Source of the DNA: Chromera velia
Taxonomy: Eukaryota; Sar; Chromeraceae
DNA length: 39,498 nucleotides
NCBI GenBank assembly: GCA_018398765.1
Contig: JAHBMJ010000856.1
Location: forward strand, 1 to 39,498
Direction: 5' to 3'
Shown here piece by piece: positions 2,697-23,911 of this stretch (position 1 is its first letter; every line of letters starts with the position of its first letter). The notes beneath the pieces are model-generated. The model had not been told where the DNA came from. It saw only the letters and a list, made by a program, of their open reading frames with translations, and did not search any database. The translations under genes and the position numbers were made by a program.

Positions 2697-3667
2697 ACGA
2701 TGACACGTGAACTGTCGATCCAACATGTGCATGCAAGGACTGACTGCATGGCCCAGCTGTGTCCTTTTGAAACGCTTTTTGTTAAACGATTGGACCAGCT
2801 AGGTGAAAATGGGGCCAGAAGCCCAGCTTGAGCGGCGGCCCGGGGCCGGCTTAGGGGCCAGCGCCGGGCCCGGCATGCTAAAGACACATTTCATTCAATC
2901 AATCAATCAACCAAACAGAGGTGACCGTGACGTGAATATATGTGATACGTGTATTTCAATTTATATATACAAGGCACCGGCTCACTTTTCTTCAAGGGCA
3001 AGGTGAGACAGACAGTTGCAAAGGAATGCATGAAGGCTTCTGAGGATGATGGGCATTCTTCCTCTCACTTTCCCCTCCTTGCTAGACTCACCCCTCTGCA
3101 GCGCGACTTCCCGTCCTCCCGCCGTATGTTTGTCTTCCTCCTGTGCAGCAAGTCGTCCTCCGGTGTTCCTTCCGTCTCTGCCCTTCCCCGTTCTGCCCTG
3201 TCGGTTACGGATGGCTCGATCTTTTCTTTTTTGCGCATGCTGACATACAACCCGATGGGCGGGCAAGGTGGGCTGCCTGTTGGTTGCTCTGATAGAAAGC
3301 TGTGCACCTATGAAGCCTGCTGCCGGTGTGTAGATGATTTTATTCATCGGCTCTCTGTTTGCCCCCGATGGACTGCCGAACAAGGCTTTTTACAGTGGTT
3401 GGCATTAATTCAATCAGACCGCTTCACTCGTTGTGACTCACCCTTTGCATCCGCCTCCTTTTCTGATCTGGGGGTTCGCAAGTTCATCACATCGCTCTTG
3501 CGCTCTCAACCCTCTCTCCTCTTTATGATTTCTCGCCATGTTGTAGTAAATGATTGATTAGATTAAGTTCGAATAACTGTCGTCCACTTAGCTTGCAGCT
3601 GGCATAATTAAACAGACCCATGCATGTATGCGCCGTCCGGGAGTTCTAACTCCACCTAGGGTTTGGC

Positions 3668-3717
3668 ATCAATCAATCAATAATTTGTGTATAAGTCTTT
3701 GATTGATTGATTGATAG
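3668..3717. repeat. Inverted (ATCA)n / (TGAT)n pair
   Basis: ATCAATCAATCAAT is followed about 20 nt later by GATTGATTGATTGAT. The two tracts can pair as a hairpin inside the AT-rich convergent gap. Further (ATCA)n tracts are at 2896, 17028 and 24652. Confidence 0.8.
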
Positions 3718-4303
3718 GTTCCGAACTAGGCCTTCCCGCTATGTCTATCTGTTGCACGTCGAGCGCTCGGCATTGGGGCAGGAGGCCAATCCTCCAGACA
3801 TTAATCCTAATCCTAAGGAAAGGAAAACGTACTAAGGATCAAATTCAAAAAATAAAATGTATGATCACTTAGATGATTTCTCCCAATTAAATTAAAACAT
3901 TGACTAGAATATTGAATATGAAACCTGAATCTAGATGTAGCATTAAACTGTAATTTTAATTCAAAAAGTCTTCTGGTTTGCATGCAGGAGTCTCGATCTC
4001 CAAGCTAGCTCGAATTTAGGCTCGAATCGCTGAAAATTTAGCCTAATATACACAGTGTTACAGGTTTTTTGCTTACTGGCAGATCACACTGGCGCCACTG
4101 GCAGCCTGGACTAGGCCGCCTAGCCACGCCGGAGGCCAGCAGTTTATACTGTGCAAGACTCTCTAAATCTCTCTGGAAAGCACAGTGTTTTTCGAACTCA
4201 AGCTCCCACTTTCACCATCCTACTGGAAACCTTCCCTGCATGTGACTTAAGTGTGAATGTATCTGTTGCGTCTGCACAAACATCGGTATGTATGTACGTA
4301 TGT

Positions 4304-4478: not shown

Positions 4479-5674
4479 TCACATGCCGACCTGGGCCTCT
4501 GCAGCGAAGAGGAAGAAGAGGTTCTTCCTCGCTGCGTTGCGACCCAGAGCATTCAGAGCGAGACAGCAGACCATCGAGGCCGCCACACCCTCAGTGGTCG
4601 CGAGGCCGAAGAGAAACCACCCAGGCTTCGGAACTGTCGCGCCCCCTCCCCGGTTGGCCCCAATGAATCTCTCGCTGGCCATCTTGCCGCGCCTGTCCCA
4701 ATAGAATGCCCTGCATGCATCATTTGGGAGGGAAGAAAACGAGAACAGCGAGGACGGAGCTATCTGCTGTGCATTCTGACTTTCTCACTTTCCTCCATTC
4801 ATACGTCTGCTCCTCCCGGCGAGGCGCAAACCCGTTGGCACAGCCGACTGAATGACTTCTTTTCCGATCACTCTGACTCTAGTCAAACACGCCGTGTGGC
4901 TCTTTGCCGAAGATTCGTGACCGCGCGCGCGCGTGTATGTGCGTGTGCGCGCGCGCGTAGCTAGGTCAATAGAGGAGTGAAGTGAGCTTGCCTACGGGAT
5001 CACAAAAGTCGAGGAATTTATTCATGCAGCCCCCCCTCCATTTTTTCGACCCTACAGGAAGAAGCTACTCAGCCGTTCGACCGTGCCAGGGATTCAGAGA
5101 ATGACAAGGGAATCACCTGCAGCATGACAGACAGCCGGACAGACGGACAGACGATGACAGAAAGAAAAACAGACAGACTGACGATTTATCCATTTTTCCT
5201 GGACCAGTGATGACTCCGTTGTCCACGGACACCTCCTGCAAAAAATGAAAAGAAGAGCAATTTAAACACAATACACCTCTACCCCCCACCCACAAACTGT
5301 ACGCACCATGTTCTCACACGTGCAGACAAAAGTGCGAACAAAAAGAAAAGCAGCAGTTCTTCACTCGAAACAGATGGCTCATGTGAAGACCAGAAGCAAA
5401 GCATGCAGGGCATAGGAAGCAGACAAAAAGGATTCGAAGAAAAAGAAATACAAAACAAGTTGTGCCTCATCATCAACTCCCGAAGCACCTGCAGTATCTA
5501 TGGCCAATAGATGCAGAAAGGATACACTCCCAACTTTTGTTTCTTTTTTCAGCAGTCTCTACACCCTTCCCCCCTTCCTCACCGCTCTGAATCTGTCCAA
5601 ACCCGCCACTTTCAGCTTGGGGGGGATGAGCAACTGGAGAATGTGCCTTGCTGCACATGTACAGACACACACAG

Positions 5675-5718
<44 letters not shown>

Positions 5719-5917
5719 GGAAAGGAACGCCCCAGAAGAGTAACAATCTAGAGGCAGCCATCTTGCACGAATTCGATCAGCCCACAAACAGAATTGAAAC
5801 GAGGAGGCAGAAGCTCATCCTTCTCTGGAAGAACTGCGAGCACAACGAGCCCAAAAGAAGCTGAGTACCAGAAGCTGGAAACAGACAAATGTGGCTGCAT
5901 TCCTGCAATCTCGTCGC

Positions 5918-5953
<36 letters not shown>

Positions 5954-8900
5954 CTTTTTTGTGCAGCATCCTCTCCACTTAATGGTGCAACCACAAGAAA
6001 GACTGACAGAGTCCACAGACATATGGGTCGTCTGACAGCATCTCACTGACTGACTGACAGACAGACTTACTGACCAGAAACAGTCGCGACAGTCTCCGAG
6101 GGAAAGAGAGCACTGCCCGCCCCCCCGCCTGTTTTGGCGGTTCCAGACGACGCGTAGACCTTCACGTGACGGTCGGAGGTCGTCATCGGAGAGACTGAGG
6201 TGCCGGCCCCGGAAAGATTCGGCGTGACGGTTCCCCCCGACACCAACGGACTGCCCCCCCTCGGATTTCTCCCCGAAACACCTCCACCCGTCCCGTCCCC
6301 ACTTGACGACTGCAAACCGCTTCGCTCGGATGACGAAGAGACACTCCCGGCATCTCTGTCTCTGTTGACGCCTGGCCGTGGTCTCCGGGGTCGGAGAAGC
6401 TTTGCAACGATTGAAGAGAACTCAGAGACCCTCTCGGGGTGTATCGGGACGTCGTGGAGGAGTGCGGCGACTTCGCGCAAACATATTCGCAGACCTGCAA
6501 GGAAAGGTCAAGATGAACAATGCAGACGGAACAAGCAGGAAAGGTGCATTTCAGTCGGATCAAAAAAGAGTGCCAATCAAAAGAGAAGGGAACGTTTTGT
6601 GTCCCTCCCTGTCATGTGCGAGTGGGGTGGTGGGAAAGGTGTCCCTTGACAAACAAAGAACGCACAGGCCCGCTGGTTCAGCTCTTGCAAATACACTCCT
6701 TTGAGTTGGTTCTTTCAGTTCGAGCTGTTACTGTAACTCGCTTTCGATATGCGAATCTGAAAAAAGAGAAAAGAAACCTCGCAGTGAGTCAGTGACCCCA
6801 TGCACCTGCTTGGTGGCATACAGGGGTCAGCAAGTTCATCATCGCTTCCATACGCACACATTGAATTTATAAAAGCAGTCACCTCAATAGTCAGATGAAA
6901 GCATCAAGCAGGCCGAACAGAACATGTTCGCACACAAGGAGGGTAGAAGTAAAGAAGCAGAGAGGGCGAAGAAACTGACGTGGTCCCGAGAGGAGAGTGG
7001 CGACTCTCACAGCGTCTTCAGATATGGGAGTCACACACAGCAGACAGGCCTTGACAAGAGACAAAGGGAGGGGATCAAAAGGTGCGGCCTGGGGGGCTTC
7101 CTGTAGGCTTTCTTTCCCTTCAGCTGGGTCGCCTTCGTTTTCTTTTTTTTTCGTTCCAGAGGGCCCAGAGAAGACACCTGATGAAGTCAAAACAAAGAGG
7201 GAAACTGAGTCTGTCTCTCGTTTACGATCTGCACCCTCCTTCTCCTTCTGTTGATTGTCTCTCTCTCCTCCCTCTTCAGTGGCTGCAGAGGAAGACGCAG
7301 AAGCAGCCAATCCCAAGTTCCCCCCCCGCACCCCAGAACCTAACCGTCTCCACCGAGAAGATCTCGGTAGTCTTGATGGGTCAATGCAAAAAAGTTTCAT
7401 CAATTCTTCAGGAGAGCATCTGCCCTCATCACAAACTGCTTCGAGGAATCGCCAGCCAGAAAATTCCTCCGCCTCGTCCTCCTCTACCAATCCCCTTTGG
7501 AGGCCCGCCGCCAAACCTGGCGAAGAAACGGGGGACTCCGACTCCTTCTCACCACCTCCCTGTTTTCTCTCAGTTCTCTTACCTAACTGAATCCGCACTT
7601 TCTGTTTACAAACTCTCCACAGCGTGCGTGCACTAGCACTACTAAATTCCCCCCTGTTCCTTTTCACATACGCTCCCCAATCCACCTTCTCGGGGAGCGG
7701 AAGAGACGGCCGACTGAAGGAAGAGGTCCAAGCGTGGGCAGAGGAAAAACGACGACGCACACCATCCAACTGACGAGCGCTGCTTTCCCCCTCCCACTCT
7801 AAACCCCCGTGTCCCTCGTCTGCCCCCCCCCACACACGACCACCTTGCGGAGGGGCTGTCACTTCCCGCTCTTCTCCCCCCTCTCGCTGACTGATGTTTG
7901 CTGCTATCCCGGCAGCTCTCCCCTCTACGCACGTGATGTCCTCACTGTCCGCACGACCTCGCCCATCCCGCCCGTCACTTTCCGATTCCAATTCAGGCCG
8001 ATACCTTGCAGCGTCGAGCAGGAGGGTCCCCTGAGGTCAAGGGAAGGAAGGAACAACGCAAGCAAACAGAAGAGGAGACAAGACCCACAACACACAGAGA
8101 TTGTGAAGGCGGCGATGATTGCTCAGAACGTCAGCCGCCAGACCGACCTAATGAACGGAAAAGTCTGAGGAGCCGCGAGGCCATTGAAACACGTGAGGAC
8201 ACCCACCCCACCCCACCCCACCCTAGCCTGCAGATGAGAGAGAAAAGCCCACCCGCTGAAAGAGTCTGCCCGATGTTCTGGCAAAGTTCAAACACACCGA
8301 GAACAGTTCCCGCAACCAACTGACCAATCTCTTGAATGTGGCTTGGGCCCTCTTCAACGTGGCCTCCATTTCGATTTTCTTTTTCTCCTCTTGGGCCGCC
8401 TGCCGCTTCCACACTGCTGACAGACCCGCCATCTGCAGATTGGACGTCGTCGCAGGTCCCGTGGCAATTGTGGAGGAACGGGGCCACTGTCGCATGGGGG
8501 TGCTGTTGGGTTCTTTCAAGTTTCTACTGCTGGAGCTGGAATCTTCCTGCTCGTCTATGGGGGGGAGAAGATACATGGGTGCAGGGACTGAAGAGGCTCT
8601 GGAAGGGGTCTCTTCTTCAAACGCATCCGCTGCAGTGTGGTGAGGGGGCATCATGGGGGGAATGCGCACCCCCCCCTTTGGTTCGTCTCCCGGTTCTTCC
8701 CCTTCAGCTTCTTCCACTCTCAGCTGCTCCACTGTCTCCTCGGGGACGTCTTCTAGGATCAAACTAGGGGAGAGAGGTGTGGAGGAGGTTTTTCCTCCCG
8801 GAAGGGAACCGGGGGAGTGATTTGAATGAGAGTGGGGGTCTGAATAGGAGACGGCACTTGAGGACGCACGTCGAGGCACAGAGGCAGATGAGACAAAAGA

Positions 8901-10563
8901 GTCTCTGTCCTGCCGCTCGACACCCCCGTCTCCTCCGGATAGAACGGAAGTCGACGAGACACGCCGACGCCGTCTTTTGTCCTTTTCCCCTGTTCCCCCT
9001 AATTTTTTCCCATCTTCTCCTTCCTCTGTCTCATTTCGTAGCAGTCGTTCTCGTTCTTCTTCATCCTTCTCTTTTCCTCTCTCCTTCTCTCGGGTCTTCT
9101 CCCTCTTCAGTTGTTGCTCAGCAAGTTCACGAGCAACTCCCTGCAAGCGCGGCAGAAGCAAAGGAGCGGGGAAGGGAAAGCGATGACGCGGGGGGACAAA
9201 GATACGCTTCAACGCAGCGGGCCATTTGCATGAAATAGACATAGAAACGAACTCCATCGGGCCAACAAGTGAGACAAGAGGAAGAGCATCAACCCAGACA
9301 GGAACATGCATATACAAGCACTTCCGTCAAGAAATGAACGGGGGGGAGACAACAAACTAGACGGGCGAAGACAGAAGTTCAACTCAAAAATCTGTTTGGT
9401 CATCTTAATCCTGTTCCCTTTTCTGAAGCAGTACGGGCAGACCTTTCGTGTGACTTCAATAGAATCCAGCCAGGTGATCAGACTCGGGTTTACTTAATTT
9501 CATACAAAAAAAAAAGACCTTTCGTGTGACTTCAATAGAATCCAGCCAGGTGATCAGACTCGGGTTTACTTAATTTCATACAAAAAAAAAAAAGACCTTT
9601 CGTGTGACTTCAACAGAATCCAGCCAGGTGATCAGACTCGGGACTGCAGACATCATCGCACCAGCTGCTGCAGCACTGACAGCTGTGGTTGCAAATTTGG
9701 CAACCGTCAGCGCGGTCTGTAAGCGTGCCTGCAGAAAAAAAAAATATGACGGAAGAGATGAAAATAAAAAGGGGGGTTAGACAGAGGGACGGACAGGCAT
9801 CATACATACAAACAGTGACAGCAACGTGGAGGACAACAAAGTGATGAGCGGTTAGAGAAAGTGGATCGAGGACCAACATACAAGGGCAGTTTTTTTGTAG
9901 TGCGTGTTTGTTCTGAAAATTTTCTTGACCTTCTGTCTTTTTGCTCGGATGATTTCCTTTCTTCTTTTTTCCCCCACAAACCTTTCCCCCCTTTCCTCCT
10001 CAGTACTGCTCTCTCCCTCTCTACGTCATCATTTCTCTCTGACTGTATTCTTGCGCCTGATCTCGTCATCCATCTAAGAATAAACCAGCAACAGAACGAC
10101 GATCGAGCAATGAATGAGCCGACTAACCTACCGTGGAGGCCACTTGCTGAATGGCGTTGACGCCGTGAGTGAGACCGCACATGAAGATGAACAGGATGAA
10201 CAGCGTGACGGCTGTGCACGCTTCCCTGAAGTGCCAAATGCCGATCTCGGTACTCCTGAGAATCCTACTCAAAGGAAATTGATCTGCAGACAGACGGATT
10301 TCATCAAGAAGGAAATGCATGTTCCTCTTTTTTCGATTTCTTGCTGGGGGGAACTGATCTGATATGGCCTGTGTTCTGTGGACAGGCCCTGTCCAAACCT
10401 CCAATTCTTCCAGATCGCGTGAATTCACGCGAAGGCCGAGTCAGAGGAAACCGATATGCCTGCCTGCCTGCACGAGCCACCGTAAAGGTCTCCCATGTAC
10501 CTGCCGAAAAGGCAGAGAAGGGGAGGGAGCAGAGGGAAGAGAGAGGGAGGGCGGGAAGGAAGG

Positions 10564-10605
<42 letters not shown>

Positions 10606-11695
10606 GACAGACGAGCTGATGGAGGGAAAGTTTGTACTTCGCTTTTGCGCTTACCGCCTGAAACATTAGCCGAGGCTGAAGACGAAGAGTTTAGTGTTGA
10701 AGCGCAAAAGTGGCTTATGAAACGGCGGGAAGAAAACGAATTTGCATGCCCTGAAGAAGGACTCACTGACCGACGGAGAGACGCCAGAAGAGAGTGAAGA
10801 TGAAAATTTGAAGAGGAATGGAGATATAAGTCAAGAAGATGATGAAGTCCAGCACTGCGTCAAACAGTCGCTGCAGTAGTAGAGCACAAGAACGGGAGAT
10901 CAAAGAAAGCATCATGAATTTGAATACAATCAATCGTTCGGACCATGCATGCTCAGGTCCCGTGCTGTGACACAGCCGCTGCATCAACCGGGGGCGGCGG
11001 GAAACGAAGTATTTCCCTTTTTTTCTGCAGCGTGTCTCTGGGAATGTACGCACGATCACAATGCATGTGTGTCATTTGACTCCATACAGGGGTGAGATGG
11101 CGGAAAGATGCTACAGCAGGTGAGGGTCCCATCTCGGCACCACGAGTCTTCATGCGAGGACCTCACGGAATGATTCGTCACGCATTCCGACGACACAGTA
11201 GCCAAAAATCCAGTTTTTGCATGCTGTGTCTGTGTCAAAGCCCTGAATGAATGCAGGGAAGCGGATATAACAGTAGGGAGTCGCGAGAACACAAATAAGA
11301 GAAGAGAGGCTTGCATGGCACACAAACCCCCAAGATCCGTTCCTAGCCTCACGCTCCTCTTTCCTCCAACAGCCTCTCACTCACTCACTTACTCCCTCAC
11401 TCACGTGCACTGAATCCTCGTGTGTCCACATCCACTGTTCCCCCTGTTCCCCTTCCAACACAAAGGCTGAGCTGTGCCTCGCAGCCAGACACAGCTTTGA
11501 GACCCCCTCTACTCCCCCCAGCTTGCCGTCTCCGACCCCCCCCTCTCCCTGTAGATGACGGGGAGACAGGAATCCCACCTCAGACATCCCCTCCGTTCCA
11601 TCGCTTTGTACAGATTCTCCCAGCCCCCCTTCGCCCTGAACAGCGCCAACCAAGTACAAAAAGAGGAGACGGAGAATAGGAGACAGATCAAACAT
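4479..11695 (-). CDS. Gene 2: ethylene-receptor-like membrane protein with a conserved CGxTH copper-binding module
   Basis: Hand-spliced minus-strand exons: 11695..11405, 11242..11162, 10870..10771, 10283..10132, 9728..9597, 9140..8325, 8030..7011, 6756..6732, 6494..6075, 5902..5790, 5235..5183 and 4710..4479, ending in TGA. Phases agree at every junction, giving about 1,140 residues. Residues 1-21 (MFDLSPILRLLFLYLVGAVQ) look like a signal peptide. Exons 3-5 encode three helices matching the ETR1 ethylene-binding domain. A charged coiled coil starts at GVARELAEQQLKREK, as in the receptor stalk, followed by about 600 mostly disordered residues. Two more hydrophobic segments lie near the C terminus (FWYSASFGLVVLAVLP and GWFLFGLATTEGVAAS). 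I see no GAF, kinase or receiver domain. The first five exons are firm. Exons 6-12 follow from phase and splice consensus; an optional extra exon near 5120..5086 would also keep frame. Divergent from gene 3. Confidence 0.7.
4921..4961. repeat. Alternating CG / GT purine-pyrimidine tract
   Basis: Two CGCGCGCG-type runs are separated by a GTGTATGTGCGTGTG spacer within the last intron of gene 2. The strict alternation of purine and pyrimidine is the pattern known to favour Z-DNA. Confidence 0.8.
5660..5714. repeat. (CA)n(GA)n composite microsatellite
   Basis: ACAC repeats change directly into AGAG repeats inside an intron of gene 2. On the coding strand it reads (CT)n(GT)n. Confidence 0.9.
5917..5953. 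repeat. (CT)n(GT)n composite microsatellite
   Basis: CT repeats run directly into GT repeats just upstream (in gene 2 sense) of the exon at 5902..5790. Confidence 0.9.
9440..9645. repeat. Tandem triplication (about 77 bp unit) of an exon end plus its splice donor
   Basis: Three near-identical units begin at about 9440, 9516 and 9594. Each contains, on the minus strand, the last about 45 nt of exon 5, the GAAAG|GTC donor and, in two units, an A-rich/T-rich spacer. Units differ by single bases (for example AACAG versus AATAG) and by A-run length. Only the most upstream copy (exon end 9597) is attached to the rest of the exon; the other two (9519 and 9443) lie in the intron. Confidence 0.9.
9597..9728 (-). 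other. Exon 5 of gene 2: helix 3 of the ethylene-binding domain
   Basis: Phase 0 at both ends, 44 codons. It encodes LTVAKFATTAVSAAAAGAMM, followed by VPSLITWLDSVEVTRK. This lines up with ETR1 helix 3 and its exit, where an AKVLTAVVS-type helix leads to IPDLLSVKTRE. The VTRK end then joins the coiled coil of exon 6, as in ethylene receptors. Confidence 0.7.
10132..10870 (-). other. Exons 3-4 of gene 2: helices 1 and 2 of the ethylene-binding domain
   Basis: Exon 10870..10771 encodes LDFIIFLTYISIPLQIFIF. After splicing (phase 1, codon GAT), exon 10283..10132 encodes LFILFIFMCGLTHGVNAI. In my model the key residues are D132, Y139 and P143 in helix 1 and I190, C193 and H197 in helix 2. In Arabidopsis ETR1 the matching residues are D25, Y32, P36, I62, C65 and H69, with identical local spacing (D to Y 7, Y to P 4, I to C 3, C to H 4). 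The helix 1-2 loop is about 20 residues longer here. Cys65 and His69 are known copper ligands in ETR1; their retention suggests Cu(I) and ethylene binding, which is inference. Confidence 0.75.
10570..10605. repeat. (GA)n microsatellite
   Basis: A run of GA repeats inside the intron between exons 3 and 4 of gene 2; on the coding strand it is a polypyrimidine (CT)n run. Confidence 0.9.
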
Positions 11696-20200: not shown

Positions 20201-21963
20201 CTCTCTGGGTGTGGGAAAATCGCTCCCTTCTCCTTCTTCCTCTTCGTTCCTTTTTGTTACTTCTTCTTCTTTCTCGATTTCGCCTTGCGTCTGAATTTTC
20301 AAGTCGCTCTTGCCCTCGTTCTCCGCATCTTCCTTTCCTGCCGACTCTTCCTTCACTCTTTCACTCCCGTTGTCAGTCAGTGCCTCCCAGTCTTCTTCTT
20401 CCTCTGCCACCTCTGAAATAGAGTCCTGTGGCTCCTCTTCTTCGTCTTTTTCTTTTTCTGCCCCCTTCCCGCCGCGGCCTTCCTTCTTCTCCTCTTCCTC
20501 CTCCCCTCCCTCAAACTCCGAAAGTCCCCCCCCATCTCCCGTCAGATCCGCCTGCCGAATTTCTGCACACACACACAGTTGCCGAAGGGGAAACAGAGTA
20601 GAATCCAGATGTGCAAGGGCGCAAAGAACAATTGCAGAAAGACAGCTGCCAGGGAGACATCAGCAGTCTGCGGCAGCTTGTGTACTATCGAACTGTCTGA
20701 TCTCCAAGATGACGCATTCACTGATTGCCAGACTCTCAAGCTGGCTGACTGACTGCCTGAGTAATATAATAGCTGACTTGCATGCTGACGGACAGACCGA
20801 CAGACCGACAGACCGACAGACCAACAGACCAACAGACCGACAGACAGACAAACAGACAGACAGACTGACTGACTGACTGATTAACTGACTGACTCTGCCG
20901 CTCCTCGAGGTCCAATTCTTCAAAGATTTCTTCCACGTCCACTTCTTCTTGAAGCCCGAGACGTGTAAGTGCCAGCTCCACCTCTGTGCGACTCAACTCG
21001 TCGTCTCCCGTGATGTCGATCTGACGGAAGGCTTTCTCAAGGGACCCGAATTTCTCTGCCGCCTTCTGTCTGAATTTCTTCACCGCCCCTGAGCGACGCC
21101 CCTTCAGCTTCTCTGCCGGACACCCGAGCAGCTCTTCCACGCTGATGGCTGCAGCATCAGACAACCACAGATACAGGCGGAGAGATACATAGACAGATGC
21201 AGAGAAGCAACTCGACTTTTCATGCTGTCAGAGTAGCTCAGAAGGAGACAAGGAAGACTTCTGAAAAAAGAAAAACACTTGCCAGAATGCATAAATGTCT
21301 CAATGAACTCCTCATCGAGTGACAAAGAAAAATTCACAGAAGAACCAAAATCGTCCCAAGCCCTGCGAACAGTCAGGTTATGAAATTCCCTTCACAACAC
21401 AGAAGTCAATTAAACAAGAGTCACGCTGACTGACTGACTGACTGACTGACTGACTCACTGACTGACTGACTCACTGACTGACTGACTGACTGACTGACGG
21501 ACTGACTGATGGACTGACTGACGGACTGACTGACGGACTGACTGAGTGACGGACTGACTGAGTGACGGACTGACTGACTGAAGTTGCTGTCTCCGTCAAT
21601 CTCTTTGAAGATTTCACCTGCCTCGTCTGATTCAAACCCCAGGCGTGAAAGCGCAAGGATAAACTCGTGCACTTCAATCTGGGTGCTCTTGTTGAGGTCC
21701 ATCAACTCAAATGCGCTCACAAGCGAACCAAACTGCTTGATGGTTTGTCGGCGGAATCTCTCAACCAAGCGGCCATGCCCTCTGCTTCTCTCTTGGGGGC
21801 TGGTACTGACATCAGCGTCTGCTCCAACTTTTTTCTCTTCCTTGTCATCTTGGTTTCTTTCATTCTCCTCGTCCTCGTCTTCATTCTCCTTCACCTCTTC
21901 TTGCTCGTCTTCCTCGAACCATCCACCATTCCAGTCGTCTTTCTCCTCTTCGAAGTCGTCCAT
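17265..21963 (-). CDS. Gene 4: EF-hand calcium-binding protein with a very long acidic, disordered C-terminal region
   Basis: Minus-strand exons 21963..21575, 21362..21279, 21148..20894, 20562..19742 and 19457..17265 (TGA stop). Residues 1-60 are acidic. Residues 89-100, DLNKSTQIEVHE, form a canonical EF loop (D, N, S, I, E at positions 1, 3, 5, 8, 12). A second repeat in exon 3 carries DITGDDELSRTE; both are preceded by the related helices QFGSLVSAFELM and KFGSLEKAFRQI, so they arose by internal duplication. A third loop, DLTGDGGGLSEFE, is one residue too long. Exons 4 and 5 (over 1,000 residues) are Glu/Lys/Asp-rich, then Ser/Pro/Arg-rich, with no domain I recognise. Calcium binding is likely, the cellular role unknown. 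The exon 2-3 junction phase is unresolved, since ATCAG|C at 21138 would fit better than the listed acceptor. Divergent from gene 5. Confidence 0.65.
20790..20893. repeat. (GACA)n / (GACT)n tract at a gene 4 donor
   Basis: In gene 4 sense, the exon ends GGCAGA and the intron begins GTCAGTCAGTTAATCAGTCAG, continuing into CTGT repeats. The donor lies at the edge of the repeat. Phase 1 here joins correctly to the exon at 20562. Confidence 0.85.
21421..21583. repeat. (GACT)n tract of about 160 bp at a gene 4 donor
   Basis: In gene 4 sense, the exon runs GGAGACAGCAACTTCA and then about forty GTCA-type units with CCGTCA and CTCA variants. The donor of exon 1 lies in this array. Confidence 0.9.
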
Positions 21964-22882
21964 CTCTCTCTGCGCACCCTCGTCGATAGGAATTTACGAC
22001 AAAATTCTCTTTCAGGTCTCAAGGCGAGAAGTCGACGAACGACGCAGTATTTTGCAACGAGAGTGCGGGGACAGACTTGCGTGTAAGGTCTTCTGCAATG
22101 GAAACGAAGAGAGCTCAATGGAAATTGAGTGACTCTTCTCTTGGACACATGAAGTTCCAGTCCCTGGTTTGCATGTCTAAGTGACTTGCCTCGGGGTGAC
22201 CCTTGTGTCGATACCCCCTTTTTGCACTATGTATAGACAACCCTCGATGCATGACAATCAGAGCGTCTTTCCTGATGCACGTATATATACATCTCCTCTA
22301 TCGACAGAGCACATACACACATGCATATAGATCGAGTTTTAATTACAGACATGTTCTTGCTATATATATATCTTCATTCAAGTAATGCTAATTATATGTT
22401 GTTAATAGTATTATTAATAATATCATTCTCTGTATTGAAATATGTAGATGTCTTTATGCGATATCTCAGTATATATTGAATTTGCACGTTTCGTGTGTTG
22501 CATGAAATGCAACGGCGCAAGTTGCGCAACAGGTGTTGCACTCTGCAACACGCGCGCGCGCGCGCGCGTTGCTTCCATGCATGCACGCGACTGACTGCGT
22601 GCATGTTGCTCGTGAGCAACACAAGGCAACAGATGCTGTTTCTGTCTGACAAGACTGACACTGATCGATTGCCTTCGTATAGTCTCTTATCTAAGCTGGA
22701 GTTCGAGCCACTCACATCTCTCTCTTTTCTGCTTCAATCTGAAGATCCGGTTCTGCTGAAGCTGTAGCCGGCTTTGCCCCTGTTGTTTTGATCACATCTG
22801 GGCGCTTATATACTTTTCACGACCCTGTAGTCCAGACAGTAGTCAGAATCAGGTCGTCACCGCGTTCGTGACCCCCGCATCG
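21964..22882. promoter_or_regulatory. Divergent promoter region of genes 4 and 5
   Basis: Start codons at 21963 (-) and 22883 (+) face away from each other. The gap has four GCAACAC/GTGTTGC words (22494, 22533, 22545, 22616), ATGCATGC at 22577, a (CG)n run at 22551..22569 and TATATATA runs at 22282 and 22362. No coding sequence is supported. Promoter role is inferred from position. Confidence 0.5.
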
Positions 22883-23911
22883 ATGCTACCGCCTAAATTC
22901 TGGTATGCACGTGGTCTATTGAGACAGCAAATGAGACTACCTCTCCTGGTCTCACTCTTTTCCCTTCCCCTTTGCGCCTTTTCCCGCTCCTTTTCCACCC
23001 CCTTCTTAGACTTGCATCCATTCAGGAGACGTATGAGGACTCCGTCGGTAGATTTTTGGCACGAGCCTTGCGGAAGGATCCTATCAGCAGCCGCTCTTGA
23101 AGCCTCCTTTGCTGCTCAGCCTTTCTGTTGGCGACTGAGAAAGAAATGTGGAGGGAGACGGGAGGAAACCAGGGCTGCACGACGTCTTCTCTTCTCCCCC
23201 TCAGATACCCCTTCTTCAGCCTCGCACTGCCCGGTTTTCACTCTTCTCTGTGCCTCTGATAGGTCAGACACAAAGCAGACATGCAGTTGGAGGACGAAAG
23301 AAAGGATGGGAGACAGAGATTTTCAGATGCAAGAAGGGAGGCCAGAAGACATGAACTTCATCAGACAACGCTTGGCTGCCGAGCTCATGAATCCTCTTTT
23401 TCTGGATGCTCGGAACTTTCTTGTGGTCAAGAGAGAGGAAGCGAAGTCGCCTGCCGCAGAGGTAGGCGCTACGCAGGTTCCTCCTACAGGGCTTACCGGG
23501 GCCCCTGTTGCTTTCGGCCAAGTTCGTCCCCTTTCTGGAGAAAGAACCCCTGTTTATGAGCTTGCAAGCCTGTACGTGGAGAAACCGTTTCGTGGTCGTG
23601 GCCTTGGTACTTGGCTGTTGAAGTCACTTGTCGAGCGGCACAAAGCTGAAAATGGAGATGCGCCGCTTTTCCTCTTGACGTTGCGGGGCACCATTCCTTT
23701 CTATGAAAGGCAGGGGTGGCGTTGTGTGGGAAGGCACAAGGATTTAGGTGGCGTCGCAACCCCAGACAGCACAAAAGCGATCGAGACAAAGAAAGACGCG
23801 GCTGCTGAAGAAGGGCTGCCCAAGCAGCTGGAGGTTCAAATTTTTCTGGGGAATTTGATTGCGGGTGTGGCACGGCAAGAAGAAGTGGTGTGCATGAAGT
23901 TTGATAAATGA
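22883..23911 (+). CDS. Gene 5: GNAT-family N-acetyltransferase with a plastid-type bipartite leader, intronless
   Basis: A single open frame of 342 residues from ATG 22883, or from ATG 22931, which gives a cleaner signal peptide. The acyl-CoA-binding motif A is LYVEKPFRGRGLGTWLLKSL, with RGRGLG at about residues 237-242 fitting the Q/R-x-x-G-x-G/A rule. It is followed by the motif B-type IPFYERQGW (about 272-279), where the Tyr is the usual general acid of the family. This places it in the GNAT fold, transferring acetyl from acetyl-CoA to an amine; the substrate is unknown. The N terminus has a hydrophobic run (LPLLVSLFSLPLCAF) then SRSFSTPFLDLHPFRRR, as in signal plus transit peptides of complex plastids, so a plastid location is likely but unproven. 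Being intronless makes it stand out. Convergent with gene 6. Confidence 0.85.
   Translation: MLPPKFWYARGLLRQQMRLPLLVSLFSLPLCAFSRSFSTPFLDLHPFRRRMRTPSVDFWHEPCGRILSAAALEASFAAQPFCWRLRKKCGGRREETRAARRLLFSPSDTPSSASHCPVFTLLCASDRSDTKQTCSWRTKERMGDRDFQMQEGRPEDMNFIRQRLAAELMNPLFLDARNFLVVKREEAKSPAAEVGATQVPPTGLTGAPVAFGQVRPLSGERTPVYELASLYVEKPFRGRGLGTWLLKSLVERHKAENGDAPLFLLTLRGTIPFYERQGWRCVGRHKDLGGVATPDSTKAIETKKDAAAEEGLPKQLEVQIFLGNLIAGVARQEEVVCMKFDK

Follow-up and report, generated by a model that had tools for sequence, protein, structure and literature searches.

The DNA analysed here, hereafter the window, is a stretch of 39,498 nucleotides from the alga Chromera velia (contig JAHBMJ010000856.1, positions 1 to 39,498), which is contig C855 in our survey of the genome (177.8 Mb, 4040 contigs). 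On its minus strand lies a gene with a predicted ethylene-binding domain (EBD) of the type found in the plant receptor ETR1. A preliminary description of the window had proposed that three exons at 9597..10870 join in phase to form such a domain, and this held when the junctions were read: the frame stays open through the exons at 10870-10771 (helix 1, 100 nt), 10283-10132 (a loop insertion followed by helix 2, 152 nt) and 9728-9597 (helix 3, 132 nt, ending in VEVTRK). The three acceptors are all CTGCAG, the donors are GTCAGT, GTAGGT and a weaker GTCTTT, and the phases agree. The motifs D-x6-Y-x3-P, I-x2-C-G-L-T-H and AKF..VSAAAAG, which had been described at the same time, are all present in the spliced frame. 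With residues numbered as in ETR1, the first exon carries the equivalents of D25, Y32, I35 and P36, the second those of I62, C65 and H69, and the third those of K91, T94, S98, A102 and P110. The junctions of the spliced model were chosen by us.

The identity of the domain was assessed with the Pfam family ETR1_N (PF25487, curated cut-off 27 bits) and with a profile of 81 EBDs, comprising 80 kept of 178 bacterial relatives and one from a viral-contig collection. The spliced domain scored 37.0 bits (E 4.1e-9) against ETR1_N, in line with the earlier assignment to the ETR1 type. Against the 81-EBD profile the E-value was 3.5e-9, and that of a paralogue on contig C1766 was 7.5e-12; among 2000 shuffled sequences, 1000 from each of these two domains, the best was 0.038. 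When the window was scanned unspliced in six frames with the same profile, the three EBD exons ranked as the top three of 964 open reading frames (ORFs) of at least 25 residues. Their individual scores were weak (E 0.0029 for the helix 2 exon, the best, and 0.1 and 0.2 for the others), but since they lie on one strand and in collinear order, the three together are not a chance result. The hydropathy peaks of the spliced core, at residues 9-27, 55-73 and 99-117, keep the order of three helices, the third being weak (1.47). A whole-genome search with Pfam ETR1_N at E 0.001 listed the C1766 gene and missed the window gene because of its introns, and PDB gave no match for the EBD (best E 1.4). The window gene genuinely belongs to the ETR1-type EBD family, as shown by its profile scores, by its pattern of residues, by the match of each exon and by two paralogues in the genome.

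A 76-bp tandem array of 2.6 copies (9439..9642, minus strand; TRF period 76, 97% matches) overlaps the helix 3 exon. It is recent and copies the 3' end of that exon, donor included, into the intron that follows; the additional copies look unusable in frame. Such a duplication of an exon end inside the following intron would suit a decayed gene, and one could also suppose that the helices are hydrophobic by chance. We regard decay or chance as very improbable, given the profile E-values, the ranking of the exons among the 964 ORFs, the invariant residues and the recurrence of the insertion in two paralogues; chance similarity in particular was ruled out by the profile, the shuffles and the ORF ranking.

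The alga carries at least three EBD genes, namely the window gene and those on contigs C1766 and C3632 (45090-46116), which scored 41.9 and 39.3 bits against ETR1_N, respectively. A candidate fourth on C818 (E 0.67) was rejected, as no Cys-His motif was found on reading. The C1766 gene starts about 10 residues before its first hydrophobic stretch, has no signal peptide, and encodes a complete EBD ending in VEVTRKG. In C3632 the EBD exons measure 100, 149 and 132 nt, compared with 100, 152 and 132 nt in the window gene, and the phases are equal, the donor of the first C3632 exon having been chosen to fit the phase. The spacing from Y32 to C65 was 54 in all three genes, in contrast to 33 in 79 of 80 bacterial EBDs and 34 in the remaining one (the viral-contig row was omitted from this count and from the second tree described below). 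In ETR1 this spacing is 33, and the algal genes thus have 21 extra residues relative to the plant receptors too. Judged by these alignments, a 21-residue insertion between transmembrane helices 1 and 2 is common to all three genes. A phylogeny of the three-helix domain, which the preliminary description had suggested as a check, was run on 93 columns and united the three genes in one clade (100/93, with the bootstrap not settled). The neighbour of this clade was Planctomycetota in one tree and Cyanobacteriota in the other, so no origin of the EBD is drawn from them.

Seven residues, D25, Y32, I35, P36, I62, C65 and H69, are usually called essential for ethylene binding. All seven are retained in the window gene, together with K91, and all seven in C1766, whereas C3632 retains five (D25, Y32, I62, C65 and H69) and K91, with the changes I35L, P36S and T94 to Cys. 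Among the 81 comparison EBDs, I35, F58, F61, I62, C65, G66, H69 and S98 are invariant, Y32 and T94 are each found in 80, P36 in 78 and D25 in 76 (N in the other 5); the window gene and C1766 retain every one of these residues. Excerpts of PMC12643061 give the copper site as Asp25, Cys65 and His69. According to excerpts of PMC11819568, mutants of D25 or C65 lose binding, and a pairing is predicted between D25 and K91, the latter being involved in output. D25, C65, H69 and K91 are all present in the three algal genes, and in the window gene the Cys and His stand 4 residues apart on one predicted helix, so that they would lie on the same helix face.

Whether such a site would hold ethylene is a separate matter. 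The EBD could have been retained for another ligand, either copper itself or another Cu(I) binder such as a different olefin, CO or NO. The copper ligands are present while the remainder has diverged far, the highest identity over the 93 columns being 34% for the window EBD and 35% for those of C1766 and C3632; the loop insertion, the I35L and P36S changes of C3632 and the lack of a detected EIN3 (see below) point the same way. In C3632, with its copper ligands in place, these two changes possibly altered or abolished affinity for ethylene. On the other hand, two of the three genes have all seven residues usually called essential, and AzoEtr1 and the cyanobacterial EBDs cited in excerpts of PMC11819568 bind ethylene. 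We consider a ligand other than ethylene rather unlikely.

With the junctions that we chose, seven more exons of the window gene beyond the EBD join in phase as far as a stop at 4479, so that 1070 residues are encoded from the helix 1 exon onward. Exon 6 (8253..9140, acceptor TTGCAG, phase 0) encodes a charged helical stalk followed by a serine-rich low-complexity linker; at the position of the junction between the helix 3 exon and exon 6, C1766 reads VEVTRKG uninterrupted by an intron. Exon 7 (6980..8030, phase 0 in and 1 out) continues the linker, and its end forms the start of a putative C-terminal module (SLVKACLLCVTPISE..), which exon 8 continues (6075..6494, phase 1 in). Exon 9 (5786..5902) encodes a hydrophobic stretch and is phase-consistent, with no recognised counterpart in C3632. 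Exon 10 (5583..5650, 68 nt, RHILQLLIPPKLKVAGLD) is similar to C3632, exon 11 (5183..5235, 53 nt) has a C3632 counterpart of the same length, and exon 12 (4479..4710, phase 2 in) includes the TGA stop. All of these exons are on the minus strand. The continuation of the model to 4479 with its C-terminal module, the paralogues with the loop insertion and the finding of no kinase, reported below, go beyond the preliminary description.

Parts of this C-terminal region recur downstream of the EBD in C3632, with order and strand preserved. Exon 10 scored 51 against C3632, whereas controls from the same genome, amounting to 24 times more sequence, reached 37 at best, and it is 68 nt in both genes, the C3632 donor GTCAGT being one of several possible. 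The place of exon 11 in C3632 was found by similarity and not chosen beforehand (35, with a best control of 34); a phase-constrained search in which the length was left free then returned one junction pair, of 53 nt, with the donor GTGAGT. Exon 12 begins with AF after a phase-2 acceptor in both genes. Across the junction of exons 7 and 8, the two genes align without gaps over 63 residues (16 identical), and from exon 10 to the start of exon 12 over 42 residues (18 identical), each at 0 of 100,000 shuffles, figures that are flattered because the pieces were aligned after both sequences had been seen. The firmer support for a shared module comes from the order, exon 10 and the equal exon lengths. 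On this pattern, the window gene and the C3632 gene share a C-terminal module specific to their lineage.

The module had no family match in Pfam or NCBIfam and nothing convincing in PDB (best E 0.44 and 0.82). Contigs C1458 and C3551 resemble the C-terminal region weakly in a genome search (E 0.23 and 0.43). Within C3551 (64318-67431), the segments 972-1058 and 1501-1614 resemble the junction of exons 7 and 8 at 50-52% over 38 and 29 residues; the local E-values of 1.4e-4 and 0.041 were calculated against two loci only, and the segments may be a repeat or a distant relative. Neither contig was used.

The EBD and the C-terminal exons may also belong to separate genes, one for a small EBD protein that stops behind the stalk and an unrelated one adjoining it. 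The linker is long and of low complexity, the gene model is our own construction from genomic sequence, most single C-terminal pieces fail to beat their controls, and bacteria have stand-alone EBD ORFs (L084, below). Against such a division, the frame stays open and in phase through every exon between 10870 and 4479, again with junctions of our choosing, and both blocks recur in C3632 in the same order and on the same strand, several exons having equal lengths. We consider two separate genes unlikely.

The N-terminus of the window gene is less firmly placed. A tentative exon 1 (11405..11695, minus strand; 97 residues from an ATG at 11695) has an open frame, a hydrophobic start (Kyte-Doolittle hydropathy 1.73 for residues 1-19) and a donor, GTGAGT, that would join the helix 1 exon in phase 0; the join is likewise tentative. 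Compared with the first exon of C3632, it gave no significant match: 648 of 5000 shuffles were equally good. A small candidate exon 2 (11167..11242, minus strand), probably part of the model in the preliminary description, was rejected because with its best donor, GTGAGG, it ends in phase 1 and the helix 1 exon requires phase 0; nor did it resemble the initial exon of C3632. Ahead of helix 1, where a lumenal Cys pair or Cys-x-x-Trp would be expected, a C-x2-W lies in this out-of-phase exon. The signal-peptide exon proposed earlier, and the residue numbers C193 and H197 given to the copper-binding pair, hinge on this tentative N-terminus and were not confirmed. As to the ER-type membrane proposed with the signal peptide, the hydrophobic start of exon 1 was the one feature observed.

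The output side of the protein was searched with a histidine kinase profile built from at most 32 length-filtered bacterial EBD kinases. It found nothing in the 39.5 kb window (964 ORFs, best E 2.9), in 10 kb of C1766 or in 30 kb of C3632, although a kinase in short exons could escape it, and it detected four of four kinase loci of the same genome used as controls. A histidine kinase hidden in the window contig was rejected on this basis. Neither the C-terminal block nor the ORFs that contain exons 6, 7 and 8 gave a Pfam match to GAF or PAS, and no Pfam domain exceeded its own cut-off after the window EBD; a MIT-like match in exon 6 (17.4 bits, below the cut-off of 22.5) was not used.

Elsewhere in the genome, HATPase_c gave at least 38 matches (38 of 38 scored, from 154 candidates) and receiver domains at least 50 (50 of 50 scored, from 139). 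Several contigs hold both together, which suggests that this protist has hybrid histidine kinases in large number. With so many partners at hand, the EBD proteins might be one half of split two-component receptors, pairing through the stalk or the C-terminal module with separate histidine kinases. No direct link was seen, however; the stalk, inspected by eye, looks like a helix of high charge and not like a clear coiled coil, and searches of Pfam, NCBIfam and PDB revealed no resemblance of the C-terminal module to a known partner domain. Such a split receptor appears distinctly improbable to us.

Taken together, we favour the reading that the product of the gene is a membrane-bound receptor akin to ethylene receptors, dependent on Cu(I), responding to ethylene or a similar ligand and acting through a non-kinase output, and we put its probability at roughly 0.6. 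Within it, the copper and ethylene binding, the membrane location and topology, and the output are parts that we infer from sequence. The three helices would form the EBD, in which Cys and His of helix 2 hold Cu(I), supported by Asp and Tyr of helix 1. The Cu(I) in the membrane core would bind ethylene or a similar small ligand, and the Lys of helix 3 with the charged helical stalk would relay the change to the cytosol. The protein appears to lack the usual GAF and histidine kinase, and the lineage-specific C-terminal module would most likely relay the signal, probably through protein-protein contact. The binding step is suggested by homology and the retained residues; the later steps are more conjectural.

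Several observations weigh against this receptor reading. At the level of the gene model, the helix 3 exon has a weak donor (GTCTTT), several splice sites in C3632 were selected for their fit, and the C1766 gene meets an assembly gap about 440 residues past the EBD, so that its output end is not covered. A cyanobacterial EBD query against the whole genome found none of the three EBD genes, giving a single match at E 4.91. The Cys and Trp found N-terminally in bacteria (in 80 and 78 of the 81 EBDs, respectively) are missing in C1766 and unplaced in the window gene. The window gene and C3632 stand on long branches in the tree, so ligand specificity may have drifted. Taken singly, exon 7 (two pieces) and exons 8, 9 and 12 did not rise above controls against C3632: the piece of exon 7 that starts the module scored 43, with a best control of 50, and the best local C3632 match of exons 8 and 12 lay elsewhere. 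Finally, EIN3 had no detection over the cut-off in the genome, which leaves the plant pathway below the receptor without support here.

Two other features of the window were recorded. A single-frame ORF at 22760-23911 on the plus strand has a GNAT acetyltransferase domain (Pfam Acetyltransf_1, E 3.8e-10), and two ORFs at 20736-21993 on the minus strand have weak, below-cut-off EF-hand matches beside tetranucleotide repeats.

Compared with the plant ethylene receptors (Arabidopsis ETR1 and its relatives), the window gene has the same three-helix EBD, with D25, Y32, I35, P36, I62, C65, H69 and K91 in register. It differs in that no GAF was found in the gene and no histidine kinase in the stretches searched, besides the loop insertion and the undetected EIN3. 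Bacterial EBD proteins of the SynEtr1 and AzoEtr1 types share the EBD core, and some of them also lack a histidine kinase. By pattern, 62 of the 81 comparison ORFs show histidine kinase motifs; the other 19, judged by eye, include several cut by contig ends or carrying other types of kinase, and others that are GGDEF/EAL-like, MCP-like or EBD-only. Exilibacterium tricleocarpae (L084, 2812-3318) has an EBD that stands alone in an ORF of 169 residues, its frame holding no output domain. The EBD from the viral-contig collection (L118; IMG/VR contig IMGVR_UViG_3300035445_000156, 91 kb, 2806-3870) has Asn at the Asp25 position in a MAFFT alignment, and its ORF, read by eye, goes on with a coiled segment and finishes in a STAS-like part; a bacterial source of the contig is possible.

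Excerpts of a 2020 review (PMC7700396) state that homologues of cytokinin and/or ethylene receptors were identified in several SAR clades, including chromerids, citing the survey of Kabbara et al. 2019, and that their domain arrangements suggest a wide range of outputs, with no functional studies. The loop insertion, the C-terminal module and the individual chromerid genes and their architectures are not mentioned in those excerpts. Our literature search found no paper linking Chromera to an ethylene-binding domain or receptor, and it also missed this review, which names chromerids; the Chromera velia genome paper (PMC4501334) does not mention 'ethylene'. Given the bacterial proteins, an EBD without a kinase is not new as such. 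What appears to be new is the kinase-less EBD family of this genome, with a shared loop insertion and a shared C-terminal module.

On a wider and more speculative view, which we hold as possible and somewhat short of even odds, photosynthetic relatives of the malaria parasites may have built an ethylene sensing of their own: a small family of copper-ethylene receptors that lost the histidine kinase, acquired a 21-residue cytosolic loop and use a new C-terminal output, beside many ordinary two-component kinases. If the receptor reading is true, ethylene sensing of an apicomplexan-related alga would become directly testable with defined genes. A eukaryotic ethylene receptor independent of a kinase domain would reveal how an EBD signals once the kinase is gone, and would bear on the old question of how far the kinase activity of plant receptors is needed by the receptors themselves. 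Both the shared loop insertion and the C-terminal module may serve as handles to find the same family in other chromerids and in dinoflagellates.

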